Shown here piece by piece: positions 9,781-48,314 of a DNA stretch of 58,643 nt. The stretch's first letter is position 1. Each line of letters opens with the position of its first letter. The stretch is from Thalassococcus profundi (GTDB lineage: Bacteria; Pseudomonadota; Alphaproteobacteria; Rhodobacterales; Rhodobacteraceae), in contig NZ_QPMK01000011.1 of NCBI RefSeq assembly GCF_003344785.1, positions 1 to 58,643 on the forward strand. Reading direction: 5' to 3'. The notes under the pieces were generated by a model, which did no database searches, had not been told where the DNA came from, and saw only the letters and a program-made list of their open reading frames with translations. The translations under genes were made by a program, and so were the position numbers.

Positions 9781-10413
9781 ATGTCACACGCCCTGCTCAG
9801 CCGCGCCCCGCATCGCCCCGCCCCGGCGCTGTCGCTTCTGCCCGACCTGTCCCTGCCGCTGGGCCGGGTGCACGAGCTCTGCGGCCGGGCGCGGCGCACG
9901 CTGGCGCTGATGATCGCCGCGCAAGCCGGGGCGCCGGTGATCTGGATCGCGCCCGCCTGGGGGGTGGATACGCTCAACCCCGACGGCATGCAGCCATACC
10001 TGGCGCCGCGGGACGTGGTCTTCGTGCGGCCCGAACGCGCGGGCGACATGCTCTGGTGCATGGAGGAGGCGCTGCGCGCGGGCACCGTGCCGGTGGTGGT
10101 GGCGGACCTCTCCGACCCGCCCGCGATGACGCCGGTGCGCCGCCTGCACCTCGCCGCCGAGACCGGCTGCGGCGCGGGTCTCTGCCGCCCCATCGGCCTG
10201 CTGCTGACGCCGGGCACCGGCGGCGCGCCGGGGATCGAGACGCGCCTTGGCCTGGAACCGGCGCACACGGCGGGGCAAAGCGCCTGGACGCTGGAGCGGC
10301 TGCGCGCCCGCATGGCGCCGCACAAACGCTGGCAGGTGGACGCCCCCCGGGACGGAAGCGGGCTGTGCCAGCTGCGCCCCGACACCCGGAGCACGCCAGC
10401 GCCTGTCGCCTGA
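9781..10413 (+). CDS. imuA: ImuA-like SOS mutagenesis protein
   Basis: A 210-residue RecA/ImuA-like protein. The visible pattern is LLPDLSLPLGRVHELCGRAR, then a hydrophobic strand with APVIWIAP, then a strand and helix with DMLWCMEEALRAGTVPVVVADL and RRLHLAAE. This resembles the degenerate RecA fold of ImuA, which partners ImuB and DnaE2 in error-prone repair in other bacteria. A perfect LexA box at 9750-9764 supports SOS control. No imuB or dnaE2 gene follows; the downstream DNA holds CTCGAG palindromes and an MFS gene. Identity rests on sequence pattern plus the operator. Confidence 0.72.
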   Translation: MSHALLSRAPHRPAPALSLLPDLSLPLGRVHELCGRARRTLALMIAAQAGAPVIWIAPAWGVDTLNPDGMQPYLAPRDVVFVRPERAGDMLWCMEEALRAGTVPVVVADLSDPPAMTPVRRLHLAAETGCGAGLCRPIGLLLTPGTGGAPGIETRLGLEPAHTAGQSAWTLERLRARMAPHKRWQVDAPRDGSGLCQLRPDTRSTPAPVA

Positions 10414-10486
10414 CCCGCGGGCAGCGCGCCGGACAGTTCCGGAACAGCAGAACCCGCCGACGCCGATCGCGACACCGCTCCCAGAC

Positions 10487-10608
10487 CCAAAAAATCTCGA
10501 GATTTTTTGGACCGTTTTTCTCGAGAAAAACGCGCCTTGCGCAAACCTTCGATCTGCAGCCCCCCGAAAATCTCGAGATTTTCGGACCGATTTTCTCGAG
10601 AAACTCGG
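10487..10608. repeat. Double pair of CTCGAG-centred palindromes, locus 2
   Basis: Four inverted repeats centred on CTCGAG. They are 10487-10510 (24 bp, perfect, with A6/T6 arms), 10513-10532 (20 bp, perfect), 10564-10585 (22 bp, perfect) and 10587-10608 (22 bp, one mismatch). The order is A-tract type, T-tract type, a spacer of 31 bases, A-tract type, T-tract type. That is the same plan as 5878-5990 read on the other strand. It lies between imuA and an MFS gene on the same strand, so it is not limited to convergent gene ends. Confidence 0.9.
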
Positions 10609-10697
10609 CGCGCCGCCCACGACCGCCCGGTGCAAACGCACCCGCAAAGGTCGCATCCCGTCTCGACAGGCCCCGCGGCCCGTGGCTTAACACCTCA

Positions 10698-11945
10698 ATG
10701 CGCCTGCCCCTGTCCTTCACCGCCCTCTTCCTGTCGGTCATCCTGCTGCAGATCAGCTCGGGCGGCGTCGGGCCGCTCGATGCCTTGTCGGGCTTCGCGC
10801 TCGATTTCTCCACCGCCGAAATCGGCATGCTGGGCTCGGCGCATTTCGTCGGCTTCTTCCTGGGCTGCTGGATCGCGCCGCGGCTGATGGGATCGGTGGG
10901 CCACGCCCGCGCCTTCGCCGCCTTCACCGCGCTCGGCACCATCGGCCTGCTGGGCCACATGGTCGTGCTCGACCCCTATGCCTGGGCGCTGATGCGGATC
11001 GGCACGGGCATCTGCGTCGCCGGCTGCTACACGGTGATCGAGGCCTGGATGCAGGCCGAGGTCACCAACGAGACCCGCGGCCGCGCGATGGCCAGCTACC
11101 GGGTGGCAGACATGGGCGCGTCGCTGCTGGCACAGCTGCTCATCGGCGTGCTCGAGCCTGCGCATTACCTCAGCTACAACCTGCTGGCGATCTTCTGCTG
11201 CGCCGCGCTGCTGCCGCTGGCGCTCACCACCTCGAGGCAGCCCGAGATCCCCGCCGCCCCGCGCCTGCGCCCGCGGCTGGCCGTCGACCGCTCGCCGCTC
11301 GCGGCCGCCGGGGTGGTGGTGGCGGCGCTGAGTTCGGCCAGCTTCCGCATGGTCGGGCCGGTCTACGGCCAGGGCGTCGGGCTGGCCGTGGACCAGATCG
11401 CCTGGTTCCTCGCCGCCTTCGTCGCCGGCGGCGCGCTGTCGCAATATCCCGTCGGCTGGCTGGCGGACCGCTTCGACCGGCGCGCGGTGCTGATCTGGCT
11501 GTCGCTCGCGGCCATCGTCAGCTGCGCCACCACCGCGACGCTCACCGGGCTCAGTACGCCCGGCATCATGCTGACCGCGGCGATCTTCGGGCTCACCACC
11601 TTTCCGATCTACTCGGTCGCCTGCGCCCATGCCCATGACTTCGCCGACAGCACCGAGCGGGTCGAGCTTTCGGCCGCACTGATGTTCTGGTACGCGGTCG
11701 GCGCCATCGCGGCGCCCTACGTCGCCTCGGTGCTGATGAACGCCTTCGGCCCGCCGGCGCTCTTCGCGCTCATCGGGCTGGGACACGCAGTCCTCGTGGT
11801 CTTCGGCCTGGTCCGCATGCGCGCGCGCCCTGCCGCCGCCCGCACCCGTTACGTCTATGCGCCGCGCACCAGTTTCGTCATCGGACGCCTGCTGGGCCGC
11901 AGCCGCGAAACCAAAAAGTCCGACGGGACGGACGCCCGGCGCTGA
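10698..11945 (+). CDS. MFS transporter (YcaD-like)
   Basis: A 415-residue inner membrane protein with about twelve hydrophobic segments. The signs of the family are GSAHFVGFFLGCWIAPRLMG, GTGICVAGCYTVIEAWMQ and the loop GWLADRFDRRAVL between segments 8 and 9. This resembles the YcaD/UMF2 type of major facilitator, whose substrates are mostly unknown. The ATG at 10698 is chosen because the first membrane helix begins a few residues later and the in-frame DNA upstream is palindromic repeat. metG follows on the same strand 75 bases after the stop. Confidence 0.88.
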   Translation: MRLPLSFTALFLSVILLQISSGGVGPLDALSGFALDFSTAEIGMLGSAHFVGFFLGCWIAPRLMGSVGHARAFAAFTALGTIGLLGHMVVLDPYAWALMRIGTGICVAGCYTVIEAWMQAEVTNETRGRAMASYRVADMGASLLAQLLIGVLEPAHYLSYNLLAIFCCAALLPLALTTSRQPEIPAAPRLRPRLAVDRSPLAAAGVVVAALSSASFRMVGPVYGQGVGLAVDQIAWFLAAFVAGGALSQYPVGWLADRFDRRAVLIWLSLAAIVSCATTATLTGLSTPGIMLTAAIFGLTTFPIYSVACAHAHDFADSTERVELSAALMFWYAVGAIAAPYVASVLMNAFGPPALFALIGLGHAVLVVFGLVRMRARPAAARTRYVYAPRTSFVIGRLLGRSRETKKSDGTDARR

Positions 11946-28891: not shown

Positions 28892-30073
28892 TCAGGGTTC
28901 GCGCAGCGCCTCGCGAGACTTGTAAAGCGGCTTGAGCAGGTATTGCAGCACGGTCTTTTCGCCGGTGTGCAGCTCCACCTGCCCCAGCATGCCCGGCCGG
29001 ATCTCGATCTGCGCCTGCCGTTCCGTCAGCGACCCCATGTCGACCCGCAGCGTGACCTTGTAATGCGGATCCTCGTCCCGCGTGCGCTCGTCCTTGAAGG
29101 TGTCGGCCGAGATCACGTCGACCCGCGCCTTGAGCGTGCCGTAGATCGTGTAGTCATAAGCCGAGAGCTTTATCGTCGCCTCCTGCCCGGGGCGGATGCC
29201 CGCGATATCCTCGGGCGCGACCTTGGCCTCGACGAACAGCTCCTCGTCCAGCGGGATGATTTGCAGGATCTCCTCGCCCGGGCGCACGACGCCGCCGATG
29301 GTGGTGACCGACAGTGTGTTCACCACGCCGTGCATCGGGCTCAGCAGCGTGGTGCGGTTCAGCTGATCCATGCTCGCTCTGAGGTTTTGGCGCAACGTCG
29401 CCAGTTCGCGCAGCGTTTCGGAATAGTCCTGCGCGCGGCCCAGTTCGGCTTGGGTGACGATTTCGTCGTACTTGATCCGCGCATCCGCATGCGCCTTTCG
29501 CGCGCGGGTCACCTCGATCAACGCCACCACCTTCTTGTCCAGCAGATCCTCGAGCAGGCTCAGTTCCTTGGCCGCCTGATCCAGCACCCGACGCGCGCCG
29601 TCGCTGCGCTTGGAGAAATCCGCCTGCCGGGCCGCCAGCAGCGCGCGTTCCGACGCCACCATGTCCGGCGCCCGCTGCGCCAGGTCCGCGGGCACATCGA
29701 AGGCGGTCTGCCCCGCCAGTTCCGCTTCGAGGCGCAGCCGCCGCACCTCCAGCGTCGCGATCTGATCCTCGAGATCGTCCACCGAGGATTCGAACATCGT
29801 GCCATGCAGCCGCGCCAGCACGTCGCCGCGCAGCACCTCGTCACCTTCCTTGACCAGCAGTTCCGACAGGATGCCGCCTTCGAGGTTCTGGATGATCTGC
29901 GGCCGCGACGAGCTGATGATCTCGCCCTCGGCGCGCACGATCTCGTCGATCCAGGCGTTCGCCGCCCAGATGATGAAAAGCCAAACAGTCGCGGCGCAGA
30001 GCCAGATCATCAGCGAAGGCCCGCGCATCCGCTGCGCCATCTGGTCGCCAAAGGCCGTCGTCGGCGTCGCCAT
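28892..30073 (-). CDS. HlyD-family type I secretion adaptor
   Basis: A 393-residue periplasmic adaptor that links the ABC transporter to the outer membrane channel. It has one N-terminal membrane segment (about 20-42, LMIWLCAATVWLFIIWAANA), a lipoyl-like half motif (IIQNLEGGILSELLVKEGDEV), long coiled-coil helices (about 85-230), and a C-terminal beta-barrel section with TIKLSAYDYTIYGTL and QIEIRPGMLGQVEL. The start directly abuts the stop of the transporter gene (TAGATG), so the two are translationally linked. Confidence 0.95.
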   Translation of the reverse strand: MATPTTAFGDQMAQRMRGPSLMIWLCAATVWLFIIWAANAWIDEIVRAEGEIISSSRPQIIQNLEGGILSELLVKEGDEVLRGDVLARLHGTMFESSVDDLEDQIATLEVRRLRLEAELAGQTAFDVPADLAQRAPDMVASERALLAARQADFSKRSDGARRVLDQAAKELSLLEDLLDKKVVALIEVTRARKAHADARIKYDEIVTQAELGRAQDYSETLRELATLRQNLRASMDQLNRTTLLSPMHGVVNTLSVTTIGGVVRPGEEILQIIPLDEELFVEAKVAPEDIAGIRPGQEATIKLSAYDYTIYGTLKARVDVISADTFKDERTRDEDPHYKVTLRVDMGSLTERQAQIEIRPGMLGQVELHTGEKTVLQYLLKPLYKSREALREP

Positions 30074-32290
30074 CTAGCTGCCCCCCTGGCTAGCGGTGCG
30101 CAGGTGGTCCAGCACCTGGTCGCGCGGCCCGTCCACCGCCATCCGGCCATTGGCCAGGATCAGCGTGCGTTCCGCCAGCGCCAGGATCGGCACGCGATGC
30201 GTTGCGATCACTGCCGTACGGCCCTGCAGCCAGCCCTCGAGCCGCGAGATCAGCGTCCGCTCCAGCGTCTGGTCCAGCGCCGCGGTGGGTTCGTCCAGCA
30301 AGCAGACTCCCGGATCCTGCAGCCACAGCCGCGCCCAGCCGATGCTTTGCCTCTGCCCCACTGACAAGCCCTCGCCGCCGTCGCGGATCTCGAGGTCCAG
30401 CCCCTTGGCATGCGCCTTGATGTACTGCCCCAGCCCGGCGAAATCGAGCGCGGCATAGAGCCTGTCGTCGTCACGTTCCAGCAGGTTGAGGTTCAGGTTG
30501 TCGCGCAGCGTGCCGTGGAACAGACGCACCTCCTGGCCCAGGTAGCCGATCCCGCGGCGCAGGTCGCGCGGGTCGATCTGGCCCATTTCGGTGCCGTCGA
30601 TCAGCAGCTTGCCTTCGCCCGGCGCGTAAAGCCCCGACAGCAGCTTGAGCAGCGTCGACTTGCCCGACCCGTTGGCCCCCAGCACCGCGACGGTCTGACC
30701 CGCGTTCAGCGCCAGCTGCGCGATGTCCAGCACCGGTGCACCGTCGGGATCGTAGCGATAGCTCACGCCGCGTAACTCGTAGCGCCCGGCGATCTTGTCG
30801 CGGCGAAGGTAGGTGCGCGTCGTGCTGCGGTCCTGCGGCGCATCGGCGATGCCGTCGAGTCCGTCCAGCGCCGCCTTGACATTGCCCCAGCGCGCCATGA
30901 TGCCCGACAGCTGCGTCAGCGGCGCCAGCGTCCGCGAGGTGAGGATGCCCGTGGCGATGATCGACCCCACGGTGAATTGTCCGGCGAAGACCAGGTAAGT
31001 GCCGGTGATGACCGCCGCGACATAGGTCGCCTGCTGCACCCCCTGGCTCCAGAAGGTCAGCGCCGAGGACAGCCGCCGCTGTTCCGACGATTTCAGCGAT
31101 TGCACCGCCGTCAGTTCCGCCCAGATGCGGCGGAACCGGTCCTCTCCGCGCTGGGTCTTGATGGTGTCGAGCTCGACCACCGTTTCCTGCAAGAGCCGCG
31201 AGGACCGGGCACTGGCGCCCTGCATTTCCTGCGTGAGGCGGATCATCCGCCGTTGCATCAGGAACCCCGGCACCACCATCAGCACGCCGCCCAGCATCAG
31301 CACCCAGACCACGTTGCCCGCGATCGACCAGACCAGCAGAAGGAAGACGAAGATGAACGGGATGTCGGTCAGCGCGCCGACGGTCGAGGCGGTGAAGAAT
31401 TCCCGCACCGACCCGAACTCCCGCATCGACGAGAAAAGCTGTGCCGGCGACCGGCCCGCGAGGTCCGAGCGCATGCCCAGCAGCCGATCCATCAGCAGCC
31501 CCTGCACGCCCATCTCGATCTGCCGGCCCGCGCCGTCCAGAAGCTGCGCCCGCGCGGTCTTGAGGAACCCTTCCATCAGAAGCGCCATCGCTGCGCCCGC
31601 GGCCAGCACCCAGAGCGTCGCCTCGGACTGGTGCGGGATCACCCGGTCGTAGACCTGCAGCGAGAACAGCGCCACCGCCACGGCCAGCAGGTTCGCCACG
31701 AAGGACCCCAGCGCCACCTCTGCGATCTGGCGGCGGAAGGCGGCGAAGCGACCCCAGAACCAATGCGCCTCGCGGATGACCGATGCGTGAGTGTCCGCCA
31801 GATGCGCCATCGGCGCTTCGGCCTGCAAAAGAGTGCCGCTGAAATGCGGCAGGAACTCCGCCAGCGGGACCTCGGACTGGTGGTCGGTCTGGGTCGGGTC
31901 GTAGATCCGCAAGGCATCGCCCTGCCGGTCCAGCACCAGCACCGCCTGCCCGTTCGACATCAGCGCCAGCGCCGGCCAGCGCGCGGTCTCCAGCCGCCTC
32001 GGCGCGACCTGAGTCGCCTCGAGCCCGGCCGCGATCAGCCCGGCGCAGAGCGCGTCGGCGTCGTAACGGTCGTTTTCGCGGCGATGCAGGCTCAGTGCCT
32101 CCAGCACATCGGGAAGCCGCGGCTCGACCCCCAGCCGCCGCCCCAGCACCCGGATCAGTTCGGCGCGGTTGCGGGCGCGGTCGCTGTGCCTCGGGGCGCG
32201 CGCCGGCAGGTTGGCAGGTTGCGTGGGCACGGGCTTCAGCAGCGCCTTGCGCGCCCGGTCCGCCAGCCCCTGCACCGTAACCCCGGTCAC
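30074..32290 (-). CDS. Type I secretion ABC transporter (LapB/HlyB-like)
   Basis: A 738-residue fusion of an N-terminal degenerate C39-peptidase-like domain (about 45-165, with DALCAGLIAAGL and LIYDP-like strands but no catalytic Cys motif), a six-helix membrane domain (about 185-460) and an ATPase. Walker A is GANGSGKST (near 537), Walker B VCLLDEPTAALDQ. The signature reads LSVGQRQS, with Val where most transporters have Gly. It powers one-step export of a protein substrate, most likely the giant adhesin encoded upstream. It overlaps the TolC-like gene by 4 bases and abuts the HlyD gene. Confidence 0.94.
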   Translation of the reverse strand: MTGVTVQGLADRARKALLKPVPTQPANLPARAPRHSDRARNRAELIRVLGRRLGVEPRLPDVLEALSLHRRENDRYDADALCAGLIAAGLEATQVAPRRLETARWPALALMSNGQAVLVLDRQGDALRIYDPTQTDHQSEVPLAEFLPHFSGTLLQAEAPMAHLADTHASVIREAHWFWGRFAAFRRQIAEVALGSFVANLLAVAVALFSLQVYDRVIPHQSEATLWVLAAGAAMALLMEGFLKTARAQLLDGAGRQIEMGVQGLLMDRLLGMRSDLAGRSPAQLFSSMREFGSVREFFTASTVGALTDIPFIFVFLLLVWSIAGNVVWVLMLGGVLMVVPGFLMQRRMIRLTQEMQGASARSSRLLQETVVELDTIKTQRGEDRFRRIWAELTAVQSLKSSEQRRLSSALTFWSQGVQQATYVAAVITGTYLVFAGQFTVGSIIATGILTSRTLAPLTQLSGIMARWGNVKAALDGLDGIADAPQDRSTTRTYLRRDKIAGRYELRGVSYRYDPDGAPVLDIAQLALNAGQTVAVLGANGSGKSTLLKLLSGLYAPGEGKLLIDGTEMGQIDPRDLRRGIGYLGQEVRLFHGTLRDNLNLNLLERDDDRLYAALDFAGLGQYIKAHAKGLDLEIRDGGEGLSVGQRQSIGWARLWLQDPGVCLLDEPTAALDQTLERTLISRLEGWLQGRTAVIATHRVPILALAERTLILANGRMAVDGPRDQVLDHLRTASQGGS

Positions 32291-33594
32291 ATCAGCGCCC
32301 CCTCGGCCAGCACGCCGCGGATGCGCGCGATTTCAAGCTCGGCGCGGGCAGCGCGATAGGTCAGGCTCAGCTCGGTCTCGATGGCGCGCGCATAGGTTTC
32401 ATAGACGCCCACCACGTCCATCACCTGGCGCTGACCGCCATCGTACTGACGCTGAAACAGGTCGAGGTTGGTCTTGGCCTGATGCGTCAGCGCCCCGGCT
32501 TCCGCCGCCTGCCGTCGCAGCGCCTCCAACTGCCGGGCCTGCGATTGCAGCTTGCGCTCTTCGGCTTCGCGGGTCTCGGCCACGCGCCGCTTTGCGGTCT
32601 CGGTGCCGGCCTCGATCGCGTCCAGCGACGCGCCGGTGCCCAGGCCGAAGGGCTGCGCATCCATCTGCAGACCGTAGTTCGTGGGGCTGTTGCCGCCGCT
32701 CACGTTCGCCGAAAGGCCTGGCAGATGGCTCGCGCGCGCGATCCGCGCCTCGGCCAGCGCGCGGTCGCGCTCGGCCTGTGCCCGCAGCACCGCCAGCGGC
32801 TCGGGGCCATCGGGCGCCGCAGCCAGCCCGCCAAGCCCGCTCAGCCCGGTGAGCGGCGTGGCACTCATCGCCCCCAGCTCGGCCAGTGCCGTTTCGGTCT
32901 TTTCCCGCGCGGCGCTGCGCTTGGCGCGCAGGTCCGCGAGTTTCTGGCGCAACACGTTGAGATCGGACATGTCGGACACGCCGCCCTTCACGCGTTCGTT
33001 CATCACCCATTCGAACTGCGTCATGTCTTCGGCAGCCTGCGCGTATTGCCGCTCGGTGGCACGGCCCTCCTCGGCGGCGAGATACAGCGACAGCGCCTCG
33101 AAGACGCGGGTGTTGCCGTCTTCCGCCAAACCGACGGCCGCCAGCTCCACATCCGCCTTGGCAAGGTCGCGCTCCGCTTTCTTGCGACCGTTGTCAAAGA
33201 GAACCTGGTTGACCACCAGATCCGCCACCAGGTCGCCGAGAGAGGTCAGGGACACCCGCGGCCCGATGGTGGGCAGCCAGTTCCTCGATGCCGCCTCGGC
33301 CCGCAGGCGCGCGGCGCGCAGCTCGGCCTCGGCGACGCGCGCATCGGCGGCCAGCACCGATTGCGCCACCTGCGCATACGGGCTGCCCGGCGCCAGGACC
33401 GCGTGCCGGCTGCGCAATTCGGCGATGATCGGCGAGGTTTCCGCCCCGCGCGGCTTCTCCGCTGGGATCGCTGGCGTCGCGGTGGCATCGCCGCTCAGGA
33501 ACCGTGTGACCGGGCTCGTCAGCTCTGCACCGCATCCGGCCAGCAGCACCGTCGCCGCGATCAGACACTTTGCGTGCTGCGCTCCCTGTCCCAT
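32287..33594 (-). CDS. TolC-family outer membrane lipoprotein
   Basis: A 435-residue outer membrane efflux protein. The N-terminus is a lipoprotein signal (CLIAATVLLAGC, lipobox LAGC, Cys21 if the start is ATG 33594). Two repeats of long amphipathic helices follow, separated by short strand pairs (RVSLTSLGDLVADLVVNQVLFDNGRKK and NVSGGNSPTNYGLQMDAQPF), as in TolC/LapE. It forms the channel of the type I secretion system. It overlaps the transporter gene by 4 bases and lies 66 bases after the adhesin gene. In-frame ATG 33621 is less likely because the signal peptide starts later. Confidence 0.93.
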   Translation of the reverse strand: MGQGAQHAKCLIAATVLLAGCGAELTSPVTRFLSGDATATPAIPAEKPRGAETSPIIAELRSRHAVLAPGSPYAQVAQSVLAADARVAEAELRAARLRAEAASRNWLPTIGPRVSLTSLGDLVADLVVNQVLFDNGRKKAERDLAKADVELAAVGLAEDGNTRVFEALSLYLAAEEGRATERQYAQAAEDMTQFEWVMNERVKGGVSDMSDLNVLRQKLADLRAKRSAAREKTETALAELGAMSATPLTGLSGLGGLAAAPDGPEPLAVLRAQAERDRALAEARIARASHLPGLSANVSGGNSPTNYGLQMDAQPFGLGTGASLDAIEAGTETAKRRVAETREAEERKLQSQARQLEALRRQAAEAGALTHQAKTNLDLFQRQYDGGQRQVMDVVGVYETYARAIETELSLTYRAARAELEIARIRGVLAEGALM

Positions 33595-33660
33595 GATCCT
33601 GCCCCGCTGGCCTGTCTGCATTGTCCGGCCCGGAGCCAGAGGCTCCGGGCACGGCGGTCC

Positions 33661-36600
33661 TCAGATCACCACGTTGGTAATGTCGTCCTCGATCCGGACC
33701 GTGCCTTCGCCCAGGGAATAGATGTTGAAGCCCTGGCCCGTTTCGTCGGTCGTGGTTCCGGTCAGGGTGGCCCCGGTGATCGTCACCGTGTCGTCGCCGC
33801 CGCCGGTGACGGTGACCGTGTCGCTGTGCGACGACAGCGCCAGAAGCTGCGCCTCGGTGATCGTGAGCTCGCTGTCCTCGGCGAATTGCAGGTCGATCGT
33901 CTCGATCTGGAACTGGCCCAGCGTCGCGGCGCCGCTCATGTCGACCACCGACGTCGTGGTGTCGTCGACGACCAGGTAGGTGCCGGTGGTGTTGCCGGCA
34001 TCGTCCGTCGCCGTGATCACCAAGTGCGAGCCGTCCGGCACGTTCTGGGTAAAGCCAAGGCTGGTTTCGCCCAGCGCCGAAAGGTCGTAGCTGGCAAAGG
34101 ACACCGGATCGACCTGAACTCCGCCCGGCCCGTCCACGACGTGGCCCACGTCGACCGTATCGTCGGTCAGGGCGATGGAGATGCCGCGCAGACCGGTGTG
34201 ATCGCGGGTGTAGCTTTCCACGTTCACAGATACCGGCGGATCGGTGTCGACAGAGAGGCTTTCGGTGATCGCCCGGGTGTTGCCCGCGGCATCGGTCGCC
34301 TCGATCAGGATCGGCGCATCGCTGGTGCCCGCCGGGATCGACGCGGGCGGGATATCGACGCTCCAGTTGCCCATCGCATCCACGGCGGCCGCATGCACGA
34401 CACCGCCGATGGTCACGTCGACCTGGCTGCCCGCCTCGACGACGCCGGCCAGGGTCACGCCCTGCGCGGCCTCTGCGGCGTTGACGACGTTGTCCGCGGT
34501 GACCGGATCGTCGGACATGGCCAGGCGGTCCACGAGCGTATCGACACGGAACCCGGTGGTGGTGCTGGCGGTGTTTCCGGCCGCATCGGTGGTGGCCACG
34601 GCGACCAGCGCGTCGTACTGGCCCGCCGGGATTTCCGCGGCGGTGAAGCTGGCGGTCCAGTTGCCCGCCGCATCGACGCTGGCGGCGCGCGCGGTGCCCT
34701 CGAAGGTCACGGTGACGCTGCCGCCGGGTTCGGTGGTGCCGGTCAGGACAAGTCCGTCCGACGCCTCTGCGGCGTTGACGACGTCGTCGCCCTCGACCGC
34801 CGCTCCGCTGACGCCGAAATTCAGCACTTCGGTATCGACACGGACAGAGTCCGTCCGGGTCAGCGTGTTCCCCGCCGGATCGGTGATCGTGGCGGTGATC
34901 TGTGCTTCGTGTGTGCCCGGCGTGATCTCACCGGCGGCATAGGTGGCGCGCCAGATGCCGGTGCTGTCGGTGCGTACGGAATGGGTCACACCGTCCAAGG
35001 TCACTTCCACCATCTGTCCCGGCTCTGAGGTGCCGGTCAGCGTCACGCCGTCGGCGCGTTCGGCGGCGTTGATGATGTCGTCGCCCTCGACCGGATCGGG
35101 GCTGATGGTCAGCGTGCCGGCCTCGGTGTCGATGGCGACGCTCTGGGTCAGCACCTCGGTGTTGCCTGCCGCATCGGTGCTGCTGGCGGTCAGCGTCACG
35201 CTGCGCTCGCCGCTGGGCAATTCCGACGCGCCGAAGGTCACGCTCCAGCTGCCATCGGCGGCCACGGTCGCGGGCCGCGACACACCGTCGAGGGTCAGGG
35301 TCACGGTGCCGCCCGGTTCGGTCGTGCCGGTCAAGGTCAGCCCCTGCGCCGCCTCGGCCGCGTTGATCACGCCATCGGACCCGCCGGGGGTCGAGGTGAT
35401 GGCGAAGTTGCGCACCAGCGTGTCGATATCGACGCTACCGCTGGCCGTGCTGCTGTTGCCCGCAGCATCGGTGGCGGTGGCGGTGACGGGCACCGCCCGT
35501 TCGCCGGTCGGCACCTCGTTGGCAGAGAAGGTCGCGCTCCAGCTGCCGTCGGCGGCGACGGTCGCAGGCCGCGTCGCGCCGCCCATTTGCACCAAAACGG
35601 TGCTGCCGGGCTCTGCCTCGCCGGTGAGGGTCACGCCATCCGCACGTTCCGCTGCGTTGACGGTGCCGTCGCCTTCGACCGCCGCCGTGTCGATGGAGAC
35701 CGAGGTTTCGGTGTCGACGGCAAAGCTGTCGGTGGCGCTGCTGACGTTGCCGGCGGCGTCGGTTGCGGTGGCCGTGGCGGTGACGCTCTGCGTGCCCTGC
35801 GGGATCTCGTTGGCGCCGAAGGTGACGCTCCAGGCGCCGCTGGCGGCGACGGTGGCCGGGCGTGTGACCCCGCCGATGCTGACCTCGACGCTGGAGCCGG
35901 GTTCGGAAATACCCGTCAGGGTCACGCCATCGGCGCGTTCCGCCGCGTTGACGATATCGTCGCCCTCGACCGCGATGGCGTCGAAATCGACAAATCCCTC
36001 GGTATCGACGCGGAAGGTGCCGCTGGTGGTCGCCGAGTTCCCGGCCGCGGTCTCGGCGGTCACGGTGGCGGTGACATCGCGCGACCCCGCCGGTAGGTCG
36101 GCGGCGGCAACCGTTACGCTCCAGCTGCCGTCGCTCTGCGCCGTCGTGGTGTGTGTCGTGCCGGCCAGCTCGATTGCGACCGACGACCCCGCCTGCGCGG
36201 TGCCGGTGAGCGCGACGCCGCCATCGCGTTCCGCCGCGTTGACGGTGCCGTCGCCGCCGACGGAGGCGTGATCGAAGGTCACCGACGCGGTGGTGTCCAC
36301 CTGGACCGTGGCGCTTTCCGTATAGCTGTTCCCGGCAGCGTCCTGCGCCGTCATGGTGATCGTCGCGTCGTAGACGCCCGCGGCGATGCCGCCGGTCGGA
36401 ACCGTGACCGACCAGGTGCCCGCCTCGCTCGCCGTGGTGGTATAGTCCACGGATTGAAAGCTGACCGTCACCGAGGCCCCCGCTTCGGCCGAGCCGGTGA
36501 TCTCGACGCCCGCCGCGGCCTCTGCGGCGTTGATCACGCCGTCGCCCGCGGTGTTCGCGTCGATGCTGCCGCCGATCTCGGTATCGACCCGGAACGCCTG

Positions 36601-38400
36601 CGACACAGTGCTGGTGTTGCCCGCCGCATCCGTGGCCGTGACCACCACCTCGGTGGCATAGGTCCCGGTCGCCAGATCGCCCGGACCGAAGGTCACCGAC
36701 CAGTTGCCCGTGGCATCGACCGTCGCGTCGAGCGACGTGCCGCCGACGGTCACCACGACCGTCGATCCCGGCTGCGTCGTGCCGCTGAAATCGGTGCCGC
36801 CGGCGTGCTCCTCGGCGTTGACGATATCGTCGCCCTGGATGGCGTCACCCGACAGGGTCACCGTGCTGATCGTGTCGACCTCGACCTGCGACGTGGCCTG
36901 GCTGGTGTTGCCCGCCGCATCGACGGTGCTGGCGCTGATATCCGCCATGTATTCGCCGCCGGCGAAATCGCCCGACCCCACAGTAACCGTCCAGATGCCC
37001 TCTGCATCCGTGGTCACCTCGTGGGTGACGTCGCCGAAGACGACGGACACCACCGCGCCGGCATTGGACGTGCCGGTGATTTCGAAGCCGGCATCGGCAT
37101 CGGCACCGTTGATCAGGTTGTCGGCCCCGACCGGATCGATGGTCAGCGGATGCGGCACGGTGTCGATATCGACCGCGTCGGAAATCACGGTCTGGTTGCC
37201 AAAATCATCCGTGGCGATGATTTGGATCGCCTCGGAATACTCGCCTTCGGGGAGGACCGTGGAATCGAAGCTGATCGACCAGGCGCCGCCTTCCGAGACC
37301 ACCGCATCGTAGCTCGTCCCGTCGACGACGACGACGACTGTCGCCCCCGGCTCGACGGTTCCGGTGATCGTGGCGCCATCGCTGTGATCTTCGGCATTGA
37401 CGATGTCACCGGTGGACTGCGTACCGCTGTCCACGTCGCAATTCGGCGGCGTCGTGTCGATGGTGATGGTGGGACCAGTCAATTCCGTCTCGGTCCCGTC
37501 GGGATCGGTCACGAACACCTCGATCGGATAGGACCCGTCGACCGGGAAGCTCTCGTTCTCGAAGTCGATGCTCCAGCCGCCGTCCGGATCGACGATGCCA
37601 GACCCGGTTTCTTCGCCGATGGTCACGACCACTTCGGAGCCGGGCTCCCCCGTTCCGCCGACCGTAATGACAGGCTCATCCCCGCCACCGATGCTGACGT
37701 TGCCATCGGGTGTGACGATCTGCGGCACCGCCGGTCCACCGCCTCCACCGCCGGACCCGGTGCCGTCGCCGCCACCGCCGCCGTTGCCATTTTCGCCGCC
37801 GCTGCCGCCATCACCGGTCCCAACGCCATGGGTGTCGTCGTCGCCATTGCCACCGCCGCCACTGCCACCGCCGCCCGCGGCACCCAGCAAAGCCGCACCG
37901 GCCAGCGCGGCGCCTCCCGCAGCTCCCGCGGTCCCCAGCCCGCCAAGGCCCAGCAGCCCCGCCGCCAGCATGCTGACCTCTTCGTCCTCGGCAGGCGCCG
38001 CCTCGGCCAGCACCTCGGGCCGATCCATGAAGATCAGTTCGTCCGACGGGCTCCACTTGCCCCAGGCTTCGGTCGGGCCGTAGCCGGCATACAGCGTTCC
38101 GCCTTCCGCCGCTTCGAAGGTCACCTCGTTGAGCACGCCGTCGGCGCTGAGAAACAGCCTGTTCGCCGCCTCGCCGGCATCGGCGAAATACCCTTCGATC
38201 ACGATCACCCGGCCATCCGCCAGGGTGATCAGCAGATCATCGCCAGCCCGGTCGTATCCACGCAGATCGCTTTGCCGCAGGTTCAGGGAAATTTCTTCGC
38301 CGTTGCCCGCCGGGATCGTGGACCCCTGCTCTGCGCCGCCGACGGAACCGTAATGGGTTGCGCCCGCACGTGTACGGGCTACGAAATCAATCGCATTCAT
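33661..38400 (-). CDS. Giant repetitive adhesin (BapA/LapA-like)
   Basis: A 1579-residue surface adhesin. Residues 1-130 match the BapA-type N-terminal domain (LRQSDLRGYDRAGDDLLITL, then RVIVIEGYFADAG). Residues 145-175 are hydrophobic Ala/Gly/Leu and 176-222 a Gly-rich linker. About twelve Ig-like repeats of ~97 residues follow (about 225-1410), each ending in VDT or IDT and most opening with GDDIVNAAERADG-like text, then GTTEPGGSVTVT and GNWSVTF. The last ~170 residues lack repeats and end with a hydrophobic TNVVI, like a type I secretion signal. There is no Sec signal peptide and no RTX nonapeptides. It is the first gene of the secretion operon. Confidence 0.93.
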   Translation of the reverse strand: MNAIDFVARTRAGATHYGSVGGAEQGSTIPAGNGEEISLNLRQSDLRGYDRAGDDLLITLADGRVIVIEGYFADAGEAANRLFLSADGVLNEVTFEAAEGGTLYAGYGPTEAWGKWSPSDELIFMDRPEVLAEAAPAEDEEVSMLAAGLLGLGGLGTAGAAGGAALAGAALLGAAGGGGSGGGGNGDDDTHGVGTGDGGSGGENGNGGGGGDGTGSGGGGGGPAVPQIVTPDGNVSIGGGDEPVITVGGTGEPGSEVVVTIGEETGSGIVDPDGGWSIDFENESFPVDGSYPIEVFVTDPDGTETELTGPTITIDTTPPNCDVDSGTQSTGDIVNAEDHSDGATITGTVEPGATVVVVVDGTSYDAVVSEGGAWSISFDSTVLPEGEYSEAIQIIATDDFGNQTVISDAVDIDTVPHPLTIDPVGADNLINGADADAGFEITGTSNAGAVVSVVFGDVTHEVTTDAEGIWTVTVGSGDFAGGEYMADISASTVDAAGNTSQATSQVEVDTISTVTLSGDAIQGDDIVNAEEHAGGTDFSGTTQPGSTVVVTVGGTSLDATVDATGNWSVTFGPGDLATGTYATEVVVTATDAAGNTSTVSQAFRVDTEIGGSIDANTAGDGVINAAEAAAGVEITGSAEAGASVTVSFQSVDYTTTASEAGTWSVTVPTGGIAAGVYDATITMTAQDAAGNSYTESATVQVDTTASVTFDHASVGGDGTVNAAERDGGVALTGTAQAGSSVAIELAGTTHTTTAQSDGSWSVTVAAADLPAGSRDVTATVTAETAAGNSATTSGTFRVDTEGFVDFDAIAVEGDDIVNAAERADGVTLTGISEPGSSVEVSIGGVTRPATVAASGAWSVTFGANEIPQGTQSVTATATATDAAGNVSSATDSFAVDTETSVSIDTAAVEGDGTVNAAERADGVTLTGEAEPGSTVLVQMGGATRPATVAADGSWSATFSANEVPTGERAVPVTATATDAAGNSSTASGSVDIDTLVRNFAITSTPGGSDGVINAAEAAQGLTLTGTTEPGGTVTLTLDGVSRPATVAADGSWSVTFGASELPSGERSVTLTASSTDAAGNTEVLTQSVAIDTEAGTLTISPDPVEGDDIINAAERADGVTLTGTSEPGQMVEVTLDGVTHSVRTDSTGIWRATYAAGEITPGTHEAQITATITDPAGNTLTRTDSVRVDTEVLNFGVSGAAVEGDDVVNAAEASDGLVLTGTTEPGGSVTVTFEGTARAASVDAAGNWTASFTAAEIPAGQYDALVAVATTDAAGNTASTTTGFRVDTLVDRLAMSDDPVTADNVVNAAEAAQGVTLAGVVEAGSQVDVTIGGVVHAAAVDAMGNWSVDIPPASIPAGTSDAPILIEATDAAGNTRAITESLSVDTDPPVSVNVESYTRDHTGLRGISIALTDDTVDVGHVVDGPGGVQVDPVSFASYDLSALGETSLGFTQNVPDGSHLVITATDDAGNTTGTYLVVDDTTTSVVDMSGAATLGQFQIETIDLQFAEDSELTITEAQLLALSSHSDTVTVTGGGDDTVTITGATLTGTTTDETGQGFNIYSLGEGTVRIEDDITNVVI

Positions 38401-44261: not shown

Positions 44262-44715
44262 TGCAGTCCATTTTTCTGTTATGTTCTTTCGACCTGCTGC
44301 GTCTGGATATGGTATAGCATCCGCAATAAAACGCAAGGAGCAGTAAATTTGTGGATAACTTTTAAACCCTAAATCGGGCTGGTTAGGACAATATGAATTT
44401 TTCCATCAACCTTCGTGCATCACCCAATACCGGATAAACGCCCCTGACGCGAAGATTGTTCCGGCGTTTCCTGGCATCACCTTGATCGGATGTGCGACCT
44501 GTGGAACAGTCTTGCAAGCCATGCCGCTCAAAATGAGGCAATATGCGGCGTGCTTTTTTCAACTCGCTGTTTTCGCTTTAACACGTTTTTGGATTTCACG
44601 CACAATTTCCCGGCGCAAACGGACGTCCGCCAGAGAGCTCAGGCGCAAGGCACACCGGACACGTCGACCTCTGCCCCACGTCCTGAGGAAAAGCTATTCA
44701 ATTATCGAGAGTCGC
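44262..44715. other. Intergenic region upstream of the tail sheath gene
   Basis: A 454-base divergent region. It is AT-rich compared with the window (TGGATAACTTTTAAACCCT, CAATATGAATTTTTCC) and should hold the promoters of the NUDIX and sheath genes. A plus-strand frame is open from 44482 into the sheath gene but is Arg-rich and without family similarity. No tRNA or small RNA was recognised. Confidence 0.5.
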
Positions 44716-46206
44716 ATGACCACATACAAAACGCCCGGCGTTTACATCGTTGAAAAGAATGCATTTCCGAATTCGGTCGTCGAGGTGCCAACGGCTGTGC
44801 CGGCCTTTCTGGGCTACACGGAACGCGCCGATCGCGACGGCTCGGACCTCACCGGGGTGCCGACGCGGATCAGCAACATGGCAGAGTTCAAGGCTGTTTT
44901 CGGCGGTCCGCCCCCGCGCCTGATCTTGCGGACGGTGCGCGCGGACAAGACCGCCGTCTATGCGTACCAAGGCCAGACCTTCTACCTGTTCGACGCGATG
45001 CGGATCTTCTTCGACAACGGAGGCGGCCCCTGCTGGATCGTGTCTGTCGGCTCGTATGAAACCGAGAGGCCCGGCAAGGACCAGTTCTCCGACGCGATCT
45101 GGTCGGCGCTCGCCGCTGAAGCGGAGCCGACCATGGTTGTCGTGCCCGACGCGGTGGCGCTGGGAAAACCCGACTGCACGGCCATCTCCGAACGGATGAT
45201 GCGCGAATGCGCCGCGCTGCAATCGCGCGTTGCGATCCTCGATATCTGGAACGGCGACGACCCCGACATCGCCAAGGTCATCTCCGGACCTGACGGGTTC
45301 CGCAACACCGTGGAGCTCGGCGATCAGCCCAGCTTTGGCATGGCTTATTATCCGTGGCTCAACACGACACTCACCGTGGCGGAAGAGGTGGATTTCACCA
45401 ACCTGAGCGACGACAGCCGCAAGACCCTGAAAACCGAGATCGACGCGGAACAGACCCACCTGGCCGAAGCCGCGAACATGGCAGCGGCGGAGCAGGACAT
45501 CCTCGACATCGTCGCGCGGCTGACCAAACCGCCGTCCGAAGATCACCCTGCGTCAGAGACCCATCAGGCGCTGATGGCGATCAGCCCGCATTACGTCCAA
45601 GCGATGCGGGGCGTGCTCAGGGCGATCAACGTGCTGCCGCCCAGCGGCGCCATGGCGGGGGTCATCGCCCGCATCGACAACACTGTCGGCGTGTTCAAGG
45701 CGCCGGCCAACACCGGTATCGCGTCGGTCGCCTCGCCCTGCGTGCCGATGTCCTCGGAACAGCAGCAGGATCTGAACATGCCGCTCGACGGCAAGGCGGT
45801 GAATGCCATCCGCACCTTCGAAGGGCGCGGCGTGCTAGTCTGGGGGGCACGTACGCTCGACGGCAATTCACAGGATTTCCGCTACATCAACGTGCGCCGC
45901 ACCCTGATCATGCTGGAACAGTCGATCTTCTACGCCGTGCAAGCCTATGTCTTTTCTCCCAACGACGCAGGCACCTGGCAGACCGTGCAGACCATGATCG
46001 CGAATTTTCTCGACGGCCAGTGGAAACAGGGCGCGCTGGCCGGTGCCACACCGGCAGACGCCTATGACGTGAGCGTAGGTCTCGGTTCGACCATGACCGC
46101 CAGCGACATCCTCGACGGATACATGCGCGTCACGGTGCGGGTCGCGATCAGCCGCCCGGCGGAATTCATCGTCATCACCTTTCAGCAGAAGATGCAGACA
46201 TCCTGA
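44716..46206 (+). CDS. Contractile tail sheath protein (phage / extracellular injection system type)
   Basis: A 496-residue sheath protein. The canonical entry YKTPGVYIVEKNAFPNSVVE then VPTAVPAFLGYTE is complete. FYLFDAMRIFFDNGGGPCWI, VVVPDAV and SFGMAYYPWL follow as in sheaths of contractile injection systems, and the C-terminal region GVLVWGARTL with FRYINVRRTLIMLEQSI matches the conserved assembly domain. A helical insert (about 220-260) adds length. Such proteins polymerise round a tube and contract to drive it out. No tube, baseplate, spike, ATPase or terminator gene is seen in the window. ATG 44716 follows GAGAG by four bases. Confidence 0.9.
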   Translation: MTTYKTPGVYIVEKNAFPNSVVEVPTAVPAFLGYTERADRDGSDLTGVPTRISNMAEFKAVFGGPPPRLILRTVRADKTAVYAYQGQTFYLFDAMRIFFDNGGGPCWIVSVGSYETERPGKDQFSDAIWSALAAEAEPTMVVVPDAVALGKPDCTAISERMMRECAALQSRVAILDIWNGDDPDIAKVISGPDGFRNTVELGDQPSFGMAYYPWLNTTLTVAEEVDFTNLSDDSRKTLKTEIDAEQTHLAEAANMAAAEQDILDIVARLTKPPSEDHPASETHQALMAISPHYVQAMRGVLRAINVLPPSGAMAGVIARIDNTVGVFKAPANTGIASVASPCVPMSSEQQQDLNMPLDGKAVNAIRTFEGRGVLVWGARTLDGNSQDFRYINVRRTLIMLEQSIFYAVQAYVFSPNDAGTWQTVQTMIANFLDGQWKQGALAGATPADAYDVSVGLGSTMTASDILDGYMRVTVRVAISRPAEFIVITFQQKMQTS

Positions 46207-46833
46207 GATGTGTGGCCGAAGAATATGGGCCATGGAAGCGACGAAAGCCCTGTCGGGCCGCGTCCGAAGGTCTGCTTCAACGTCGCACCGCACGTCGGGA
46301 CGCTTGTGACCTGGGCCGATCTGCGCAACGGTATCGCACGCGAACCGGCGCAATCGCGCGTTTCGTGATCCGCCGCCGAAAAAGGGCCGTCGCGCCATGA
46401 TCGAGTCAAAGTTGACCTTGCGGCCCCGCGCCAGCGAACCGCCCGGACGCACCCGGACGCTTGGCGGGATCGGGCACGTCACGGCAAACTTGTCGGCCTT
46501 GGGGTGCCCTGCGCGTGTTCGACCAAGCTGCCATGCCTCCGGCTCAGATCCCCAGCGCAAGCCAAACCTTGTTCGAAAGCGGGTCGTCGAAGATCGGCCC
46601 CGCCCCGGCGCGTTACCTCTTCCTGCCGCGGCACGCGCGACCGCTCACTGTTGCAGGGCACATCGCGTGTTTCGCCGCGACAGCGCCGGGCGCGAACGCC
46701 ACGCCGTCCGCAGTCGAGAGCCCCTGCAAACCGCTGCCCAAAGAAGACCAGACCGGCGCGACAGGGTCGTCGTTCCCCGCACGCGCGCCGGAGCCGTGCA
46801 AAGGCCCGCCGCGCCAACCGGCGGAGCCGACCG
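46207..46833. other. 627-base stretch between sheath and partner, coding status unclear
   Basis: Between the two tail-like genes lie several overlapping plus-strand frames with high third-position GC but no recognisable domain. One reads MPPAQIPSASQTLFESGSS from about 46533 and continues as Pro/Ala-rich text past the start of the next gene; another ends exactly in the ATGA of that gene. It may hold a small or frameshifted gene, a regulatory leader, or the remains of a lost tube gene. I cannot choose. Confidence 0.5.
46225..46368 (+). CDS. Possible 47-residue protein after the sheath gene
   Basis: A short plus-strand frame from ATG 46225 to TGA 46368. The text (MGHGSDESPVGPRPKVCFNV, then APHVGTLVTWADLRNGIARE) looks protein-like, with high third-position GC. 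No ribosome site is clear and no family is recognised. It starts 19 bases past the sheath stop. Low confidence; it might be the remains of a longer gene. Confidence 0.25.
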   Translation: MGHGSDESPVGPRPKVCFNVAPHVGTLVTWADLRNGIAREPAQSRVS

Positions 46834-47841
46834 ATGACCCGCAGCGTGCACTACAAACCCTTTCTGAGCCTCGCGCTGCGCCACGGCTACTACACCGGCG
46901 GGACCGCCCGCAGCCTCACCCTGGCCCCGACCGCGATCACGGCCAACGTGTTGTCGGGCCATCTGTGCCGCCTGCGCGCCACCCCCGGATTGGCCGAGAT
47001 CTGGTACGCCGAAGAGACCGGCATCGCCCCGGCGCTGGACTTGCCCGATGGCACGATCCTCGGCTTCACCCTGCCCAGCAGCGATCCGGACTTCTTCGTC
47101 GTGACGGAGCCCGTCTGGCCGGGCGAGTTGTCACCGGATGATTGCCTCTACCTCTCGAACAAGGGGCGCACCGCGGACGACCCGGTGTCCCTGCCCGCAA
47201 CGGGCGCAACGGTCTTGCCGGCGCGGCCGCGCGGCTTTCCGCGGCCCGAGGACGCTTCGGGCCGGCTGAGCCTTGTGCGCTGGTTCGACGACACCGCGGT
47301 CTGGCAGGAACCGCAAGGGCTGCCGCCCGCAGCCCCGATCAACCTGTCGGATGTGACGGCGGACGGGCGGTATCTGCTGATGGCGGACGACGCGGTGGTT
47401 CTGGACTTTTACCTGACCGCCCTCCCCGCCGCGCAAGTGCCCATTGCGCTGGAACTGGGATGGGCCCCGCCGCGCCACGCAGCGGATCTGCCACGGCGGG
47501 CCGAGATCGGGGTCGACGCACGACGCGGAACCTGGGTCTACCACGTCGCATCGTCGGACCCGTTGGAGGAGACGAAACCCCTCCGTATCGTCGACGCTGA
47601 AGGCAACAGCCCATTCGGCGAGGGTGTGGTCGAGAAAATCGGCGGATCGCCGGCTGTTACATTCCGCTCTCTGGCACCGCTGGATATTCGGGAAAGCTAC
47701 TCCGCCGAAGACCGGCTGATGCTGGAAATACACGAAGCCGGCACGCAGGCGCCCAAGACGATCCCGCTGCCGCTTGCCGGGCCGGGGAACATCGCCAAGC
47801 GACAGGACCGGTTTGATTTCGAAATGTACGTCACGCTCTGA
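46834..47841 (+). CDS. Unrecognised protein paired with the tail sheath
   Basis: A 335-residue protein I do not recognise. It begins [20 protein letters not shown], then a strand with [17 protein letters not shown] and a series of short strands ([33 protein letters not shown]), suggesting a mostly beta, multi-domain fold with no signal peptide or membrane segment. The C-terminus ([10 protein letters not shown]) is strand-like. It follows the sheath gene on the same strand, with GGAG nine bases before ATG 46834. Its place suggests a structural or targeting role with the sheath; this is inferred. Confidence 0.65.
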
Positions 47842-47978: not shown

Positions 47979-48221
47979 TCAGCCCTTGGCTTCGAGCGCG
48001 TCGAGCCGCGCCTTGAGCGCTTCGTTCTCTTCGCGGGCCTTCTGGGCCATCGCCCGCACCGCGTCGAATTCCTCGCGCGTCACGAAATCGCGGTCTGCCA
48101 GCCAGCGGTCGATCATGGATTTCATCGCCGTCTCGGCTTCATCCTTGGCGCCCTGAGCCACGCCCATCGCGTTGGTCATCAGCTGGGACAGGTCATCGAA
48201 CACCTTGTTGCGCGTCTGCAT
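47979..48221 (-). CDS. ubiK: UbiK-like accessory factor (BMFP family)
   Basis: An 80-residue coiled-coil protein: [20 protein letters not shown], then a helix [20 protein letters not shown] and a heptad tail [16 protein letters not shown]. This is the BMFP/UbiK (DUF526) layout; UbiK assists ubiquinone biosynthesis under air and can bind membranes. The start ATG 48221 has GGAG six bases upstream and is preferred to ATG 48233. It is divergent from lgt across less than 100 bases. Confidence 0.85.
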
Positions 48222-48314
48222 GTCATTCTCCATCTTCGGTTGCCCTCTATATGGAGGCGCAGGGGCAAAGTCTCAAGGTTGACTTCTTTCGCGCGGCATA
48301 GTCTCAGATCGCGC

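Follow-up and report, generated by a model that had tools for sequence, protein, structure and literature searches.

A sheath gene and a cap-adaptor gene in Thalassococcus profundi, the probable remnant of an extracellular contractile injection system

Two intact genes 627 bp apart

The 58,643-bp stretch of Thalassococcus profundi DNA analysed here (contig NZ_QPMK01000011.1, positions 1 to 58,643; hereafter the window) carries a contractile sheath gene of the extracellular contractile injection system (eCIS) type, followed on the same strand by a gene that we identify as Cis16B, the cap adaptor of such systems. Both frames are free of internal stops, and the short gap between them stands in the place of some 16-18 kb in the complete clusters of relatives. 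The locus comprises the following features.

44716..46206, plus strand: eCIS sheath gene (Cis2 type), 496 residues, intact; from the frame, Pfam, a PDB match and conservation
46207..46833, no strand: gap between the sheath and Cis16B genes, 627 bp; the place of about 16-18 kb in complete clusters
46218..46285, plus strand: probable drifted stub, the start of the first tube gene; from a DNA profile of seven relatives
46834..47841, plus strand: Cis16B cap-adaptor gene, 335 residues, intact; from the family profile and the fold

The sheath protein begins with MTTYKTPGVYIVEKNAFPNSVVE and has the conserved N-terminal arm in alignment with its relatives. Its C-terminal domain, PF17482, scores over the Pfam cut-off (40.2 against 26.9 bits), and the middle, subtilisin-like domain PF04984 scores 26.3 bits, under its cut-off of 31.4. 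The best solved relative is 9r9h_T (E 1.3e-135, residues 3-496 on 3-519), followed by the sheaths of AlgoCIS (PDB 7adz, 3e-95) and Anabaena (PDB 7b5h and 7b5i, 1.7e-87); phage sheath families of PHROGs match as well (phrog_17610, 2.1e-46; phrog_23, 1.8e-40). Within the bacterial family, the nearest sheaths are those of genomes G035 (58% identity) and G072 (57%). By these sequence relationships the sheath is of the eCIS type.

As a single sequence, the 335-residue partner matched nothing in Pfam, PHROGs or NCBIfam and nothing meaningful in PDB. A profile of the partner with four relatives from the same family reached SalCis16b at 1.3e-8 and Anabaena All3326 at 4.9e-5, the AlgoCIS cap adaptor only at 1.7. 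With a profile of 55 sequences (the partner plus 54 of the 66 rows of relatives gathered by iteration) the values became 2e-50 for SalCis16b over the whole chain, 1.7e-16 for the AlgoCIS adaptor and 1.3e-15 for All3326; the profile was built on loci fetched via the sheath gene, and its size is no independent count. The relatives gathered in this way sit mostly just upstream of the sheath gene in other eCIS clusters. An AlphaFold2 model from the 55-sequence alignment had a mean predicted local distance difference test (pLDDT) score of 71.5, with residues 1-60 and about 231-335 mostly at about 90 or more and residues about 116-200 below 50; folding from the single sequence was useless (pLDDT 35). 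Searched against PDB, the model matched only two chains at E <= 0.001, 7b5i_AB (1.4e-9) and 7adz_1A (1.2e-6), with template modelling scores of 0.40-0.51 that include the poor middle of the model. Profile and predicted fold together identify the partner as Cis16B, the cap adaptor joining the far sheath end to the cap. In AlgoCIS the cap adaptor contacts the most distal sheath layer, and this protein, Alg16B, terminates and stabilises the sheath end (PMC8894135).

A preliminary description of this DNA, made from the letters alone, had reported a full-length injection-type sheath and a 335-residue protein on one strand, and the frames at 44716-46206 and 46834-47841, with PF17482 over its cut-off, bear it out. 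Pfam likewise confirmed the setting that it gave, with NUDIX (PF00293) upstream and ubiK (BMFP, PF04380) and lgt (PF01790) downstream. It had seen no tube, baseplate or spike, and searches of the whole window with own hidden Markov models (HMMs; open reading frames of at least 60 residues, E <= 1e-3) returned 0 matches for tube, cap, LysM, spike, PAAR, gp25 and baseplate-J; those for LysM/CIS_tube, spike, PAAR and baseplate-J were confined to the window. Its view of an isolated sheath pair was right, no other eCIS gene being detected there. The claim that the partner belongs to an unknown family holds for the single sequence in Pfam, PHROGs and NCBIfam and fails once relatives are used: what those single-sequence searches missed is a named part, Cis16B.

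Gene order in relatives and a probable trace in the gap

The odd pairing is explained by gene order in relatives. In G035 and G072 the cluster runs sheath, tube, tube, LysM, spike, PAAR, gp25, baseplate-J, Pvc16_N (Cis16A), Cis16B, and in the Roseobacter genome G455 (locus L045) the sheath also comes first, with Pvc16_N and then Cis16B as the last of the recognised parts. Some of the sheaths nearest to that of the window belong to these clusters, which have the same two genes at both ends and have kept the middle ones, with about 18.5 kb from sheath to Cis16B in G035, about 15.7 kb in G072 and about 16.5 kb in G455, whereas the window has only 627 bp. Between the ends in G072, Pfam recognises two tubes, CIS_tube (in the LysM position), a Phage_base_V spike, PAAR, gp25, Baseplate_J and an AAA ATPase; one 835-residue protein of that cluster has no Pfam match. 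A search with the single partner sequence found matches in three of 295 genomes of the family, G035, G072 and the window's own genome (G000), all of them sheath-bearing.

More widely, we compared 85 eCIS loci, a set that includes at least one duplicate (G098 and L049 are the same record). A tube gene lies within 3 kb of the sheath gene in 81 of the 84 loci that extend 1.5 kb or more downstream of it, and Cis16B stands directly before the sheath in 53 of the 81 with at least 1.5 kb upstream (strict overlap cut). The Cis16B gene adjoins the Pvc16_N cap gene in G035, G072, G101, G130 and G455. Beside the window's Cis16B no Pvc16_N was detected, nor anywhere in the window or its genome, as would be expected if, as we propose, Pvc16_N went with the middle of the cluster.

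Three characterised systems resemble the locus in both genes. SalCIS (9r9h, 9r9n) is nearest, through the nearly full-length sheath match and the whole-chain Cis16B profile match given above; the name SalCis16b is taken from the PDB table, and 9r9h is presumably the same system as SalCis16b (9r9n), as one sheath sequence is common to 9r9h, 9r9i, 9r9n and 9rce. AlgoCIS is alike in its sheath and in Alg16B, by profile and fold, and the Anabaena system in its sheath, All3325, and in All3326, again by both. SalCIS is known from solved particle structures, whereas tube, cap and baseplate genes are missing from the window locus. AlgoCIS is a complete particle, and its adaptor has 284 residues against 335 in the window's Cis16B, with the low-confidence part at about 116-200. 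The Anabaena system is complete and anchored to thylakoids, unlike the window pair.

Searches of the whole genome supplied no missing part. The sheath family PF04984 and the Cis16B profile each have one match in G000, both in the window. The tube family PF06841 has 0 matches there, while the same search finds it in G035, G072 and G101 and in 31 of the 295 family genomes; Pvc16_N also has 0 matches, and all three complete relatives have it. The sole PF04965 (gp25-like) match in G000 lies on contig C17 beside Hcp and VipB, which marks it as type VI, and this search found no gp25 of the eCIS type. Eight of the 37 sheath-bearing genomes of the family have no PF06841 match: G000, G099, G073, G075, G086, G106, G255 and G291. 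In the last five the sheath match is weak, at best 1.7e-7.

As separate observations, the region of contig C17 around 24660 (L137) carries the type VI secretion genes VipB, Hcp and a gp25/TssE-like gene, and PF04965 matches occur also in G299 (two) and G300 (one).

Right behind the sheath gene, the gap appears to retain a trace of what was lost. A DNA profile of the post-sheath stretch of seven relatives, run over the whole window on both strands, gave one match below E 1, at 46218-46285 (E 7.9e-4; next best 1.4). When the window was scanned in a slide over 216 segments, this place scored highest, with 163 against 116 for the best elsewhere. Compared singly, the 120 bp behind the sheath gave scores with L045, L046, G098, G072, G035 and L047 that were reached by 0, 0, 0, 1, 12 and 12 of 300 shuffles, respectively. 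The stub keeps five of the ten residues of the tube motif, as do 3 of 2000 shuffles; nine or ten are kept in seven of the eight distinct sheath-first relatives, and none in L048. Searches of the stub returned no Pfam or PHROG match. We regard 46218-46285 as a probable stub, about 68 bp long and drifted, of the first tube gene's beginning. When segments of the gap were compared with the whole G035 and G072 clusters (10 comparisons), the scores were reached by 1 to 25 of 25 shuffles, and a test for relics just upstream of Cis16B, one of little power, found nothing.

Most probably, the pair is what is left of an eCIS cluster that has lost its middle and with it the injection role: its two genes are those that open and close three related complete clusters, as loss of everything between them would explain, and the stub makes that loss firmer. 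The identity of both genes, the order in the three relatives and the lack of any detectable tube or cap gene in the genome are established, and the stub is probable; the deletion itself, its timing and the pair's inability to inject are what we infer. The ancestral order would most likely have been sheath, two tubes, LysM protein, spike, PAAR, gp25, baseplate, ATPase, Cis16A/Pvc16_N and Cis16B, and one or more deletions, starting within the first tube gene, would have taken out everything that separated the two end genes. Any sheath protein still made could at most assemble into tubeless contracted polysheath, whose end the adaptor would bind. The locus would then consist of known parts of a known kind, in an incomplete system.

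Lone sheaths elsewhere and competing readings

Besides that of the window, we found four lone eCIS sheaths. Three of them, L051 (a metagenome-assembled genome of Owenweeksia, Bacteroidota), L058 (Massilia terrae) and L113 (Janthinobacterium; like L058, Oxalobacteraceae), come from 80 loci of a scan of genome contigs. Each has a sheath gene at about 9950-11490 of its locus, between genes that by eye are unrelated. In the flanking 10 kb or so to each side the HMMs recognised no further eCIS gene, and the searches applied to G000 found no PF06841 tube, Pvc16_N or Cis16B in these genomes. The fourth, in G099 of the window's family (L144:10303-11838), is a 511-residue sheath that also lies beside ubiK-lgt and sits on a long branch; no tube and no Cis16B was detected in G099, and three further genomes of that genus gave no match to its sheath. 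Of the five lone sheaths, only that of the window comes with a Cis16B. In a tree of 34 of 91 sheaths, in which some family rows were stop-to-stop frames, the five fall in five places, which requires five independent changes; well-supported branches make at least three of these unavoidable. At the 99%-conserved columns, G099 and L058 are drifting (11 and 6 deviations of 88), and L051 and L113 are not (0 and 1 of 88). By eye, the neighbours have nothing in common except ubiK-lgt in the window and G099. Common ancestry of these two sheaths at ubiK-lgt was considered and rejected, as G099 groups with G130, G146, G001 and G119 and not with the window; two separate events are more likely. No eCIS-type sheath lies at lgt in G001, G035, G072, G098, G101, G119, G130, G133, G146 or G246, where it is on another contig or more than 180 kb away. 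The search began from the sheath gene, and the counts are biased towards sheaths accordingly. Among the open-access papers searched, titles and the openings of abstracts showed no report of lone eCIS sheaths.

Lone sheaths may be one outcome of cluster breakdown. Intact lone eCIS sheaths in genomes with no detected tube mean that a sheath match alone is no proof of an injection system.

Two kinds of further case were seen. G073 (L145:9206-10318) has a short lone sheath of 371 residues with PF04984 and PF17482 over their cut-offs, placed by eye between an ABC transporter ATPase gene and TRAP-type transporter genes; its genome has no PF06841 match, phage tubes of other families not having been searched for. 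Possible lone tubes occur in G219 (L171:9256-9990) and G244 (L172:9635-10096): both genomes have a PF06841 tube gene and lack a sheath match, and the 20 kb around each tube gave no second eCIS HMM match.

Several findings weigh against a plain remnant. The stub is short, at the protein level it matches weakly (E 4.7, with 2 of 500 shuffles scoring above it), and no relic was found elsewhere in the gap, where the best tblastn score, 23.1 bits, lies within the 21.9-29.6 of 20 shuffles. The sheath is not visibly decaying, and by its sequence it appears as conserved as intact kin. It deviates at 1 of 88 columns that are 99% conserved and at 5 of 149 that are 95% conserved among reference sheaths, against 1 and 5 in G035, 2 and 4 in G072, and a median of 0 and 1 for the 83 other sheaths. 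The reference excludes G101 and G133, which are distant, and L102, whose cluster is split over several frames, and the value of 12/100 for G119 is due to a truncated N terminus. The codon-position G+C of the sheath gene is that of a working gene. Set beside the 5 of 10 motif residues changed in the stub, the 5 of 149 columns changed in the sheath give a Fisher p of 7e-5, for two different genes and one short stretch. The stub has drifted and the sheath has not, so that time may have passed without sheath drift; this slightly favours a kept sheath, and the contrast, drawn from ten residues of another gene, gives only a hint that the sheath continued to be maintained once the tube had gone. Lone eCIS sheaths also recur, in G099, L051, L058 and L113.

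Some of these points bear on a reading with the same origin in which a new role has preserved the pair, be it as a sheath inside the cell that contracts without a tube or is capped, or as a decoy against incoming or the cell's own contractile systems. We hold this to be unlikely, though several things speak for it: both frames are intact, the sheath is constrained like intact kin beside a drifted stub, the two survivors are direct structural partners, other genomes without a detected tube have lone sheaths, constrained in L051 and L113, and a decoy would have a type VI system of its own genome to act on. Against it, the genes that survive are just those at the two ends of the ancestral order, Cis16B accompanies none of the other four lone sheaths, these lie at scattered places of the tree with no shared neighbour beyond ubiK-lgt, two of the five are drifting, and most genus mates have no sheath gene. 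Slightly harder to credit is the broader claim that lone eCIS sheaths form a recurrent, selectively kept class, in which bacteria whose tube and baseplate are gone retain the sheath, here together with its cap adaptor, as a tubeless contractile or decoy protein. If strains show that selection keeps such sheaths, a tubeless use of the contractile sheath becomes testable. The repurposed element or decoy suggested in the preliminary description finds only indirect support, in the normal conservation of the sheath and the recurrence of lone sheaths. On its idea that the two work as a unit, the proteins do belong together, the AlgoCIS adaptor touching the distal sheath (PMC8894135), and sheath and Cis16B do recur together in relatives, but as parts of whole systems.

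It is very improbable that the pair serves a system with its remaining parts at other places in the genome, the satellite of the preliminary description. Hcp, VipB and gp25-like genes are indeed present on contig C17, but the gp25-like gene is type VI and no PF06841 tube or Pvc16_N was found anywhere, spike, baseplate-J and ATPase not having been searched genome-wide (AAA domains are so widespread that a family search would say little). A complete cluster nearby, which would have told against the description, is absent from the window, and none turned up in the rest of the genome. An assembly artefact, with an intact cluster losing its middle through omission or misjoining, is equally improbable: the assembly is a draft of 94 contigs and most of the 627-bp joint resembles none of the compared sequences, but the genome is estimated by computation to be 100% complete, tube and cap genes were found on no contig, the pair lies within one contig, and the stub has drifted and was not cut clean. 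Least credible is a remnant of a contractile phage instead of an eCIS. The PHROG sheath families phrog_17610 and phrog_23 do match, but a phage origin is not supported, as the nearest relatives are eCIS sheaths and the partner matches no PHROG but three cap proteins of contractile injection systems. Loss of the middle of an eCIS cluster remains the explanation that we prefer.

Site and neighbouring genes

Two further features flank the pair.

44578..44606, plus strand: sigma-70-like match upstream of the sheath gene, 9 of 12 positions; a consensus match only
47979..48233, minus strand: ubiK, whose 3' end is the right edge of the variable region

In the genus mates G067, G295 and G296, DNA similarity to the window starts at the 3' end of ubiK (47979-47989) and runs through lgt to a laccase-like gene. 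Upstream of ubiK there is no DNA similarity with these three; by eye, their genes there are not those of the window, and those of G296 differ from those of G067 and G295. In the fourth genus mate, G297, the contig stops within lgt. A sheath match occurs in two of the five genomes of the genus, G000 itself and, partially, G297. G067, G295 and G296 have no sheath match at all, and what G297 matches partially is a different sheath, one followed by a tube. Probably, then, this lineage acquired the cluster by transfer, at a variable spot. No integrase, capsid or holin was recognised by eye in the open reading frame lists consulted, no dedicated search having been made.

The left edge of the ubiK-lgt-laccase block (47979) looks like a spot of frequent DNA exchange. 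A second lgt-like gene, 63% identical to that of the window, lies on contig C15 of G000 (58871-59740). Elsewhere in the window, the minus strand at 28892-38400 encodes a 1579-residue protein of Big-domain repeats whose N terminus is BapA-like; ABC exporter and HlyD genes lie next to it, and together these likely form a type I-secreted adhesin unit.

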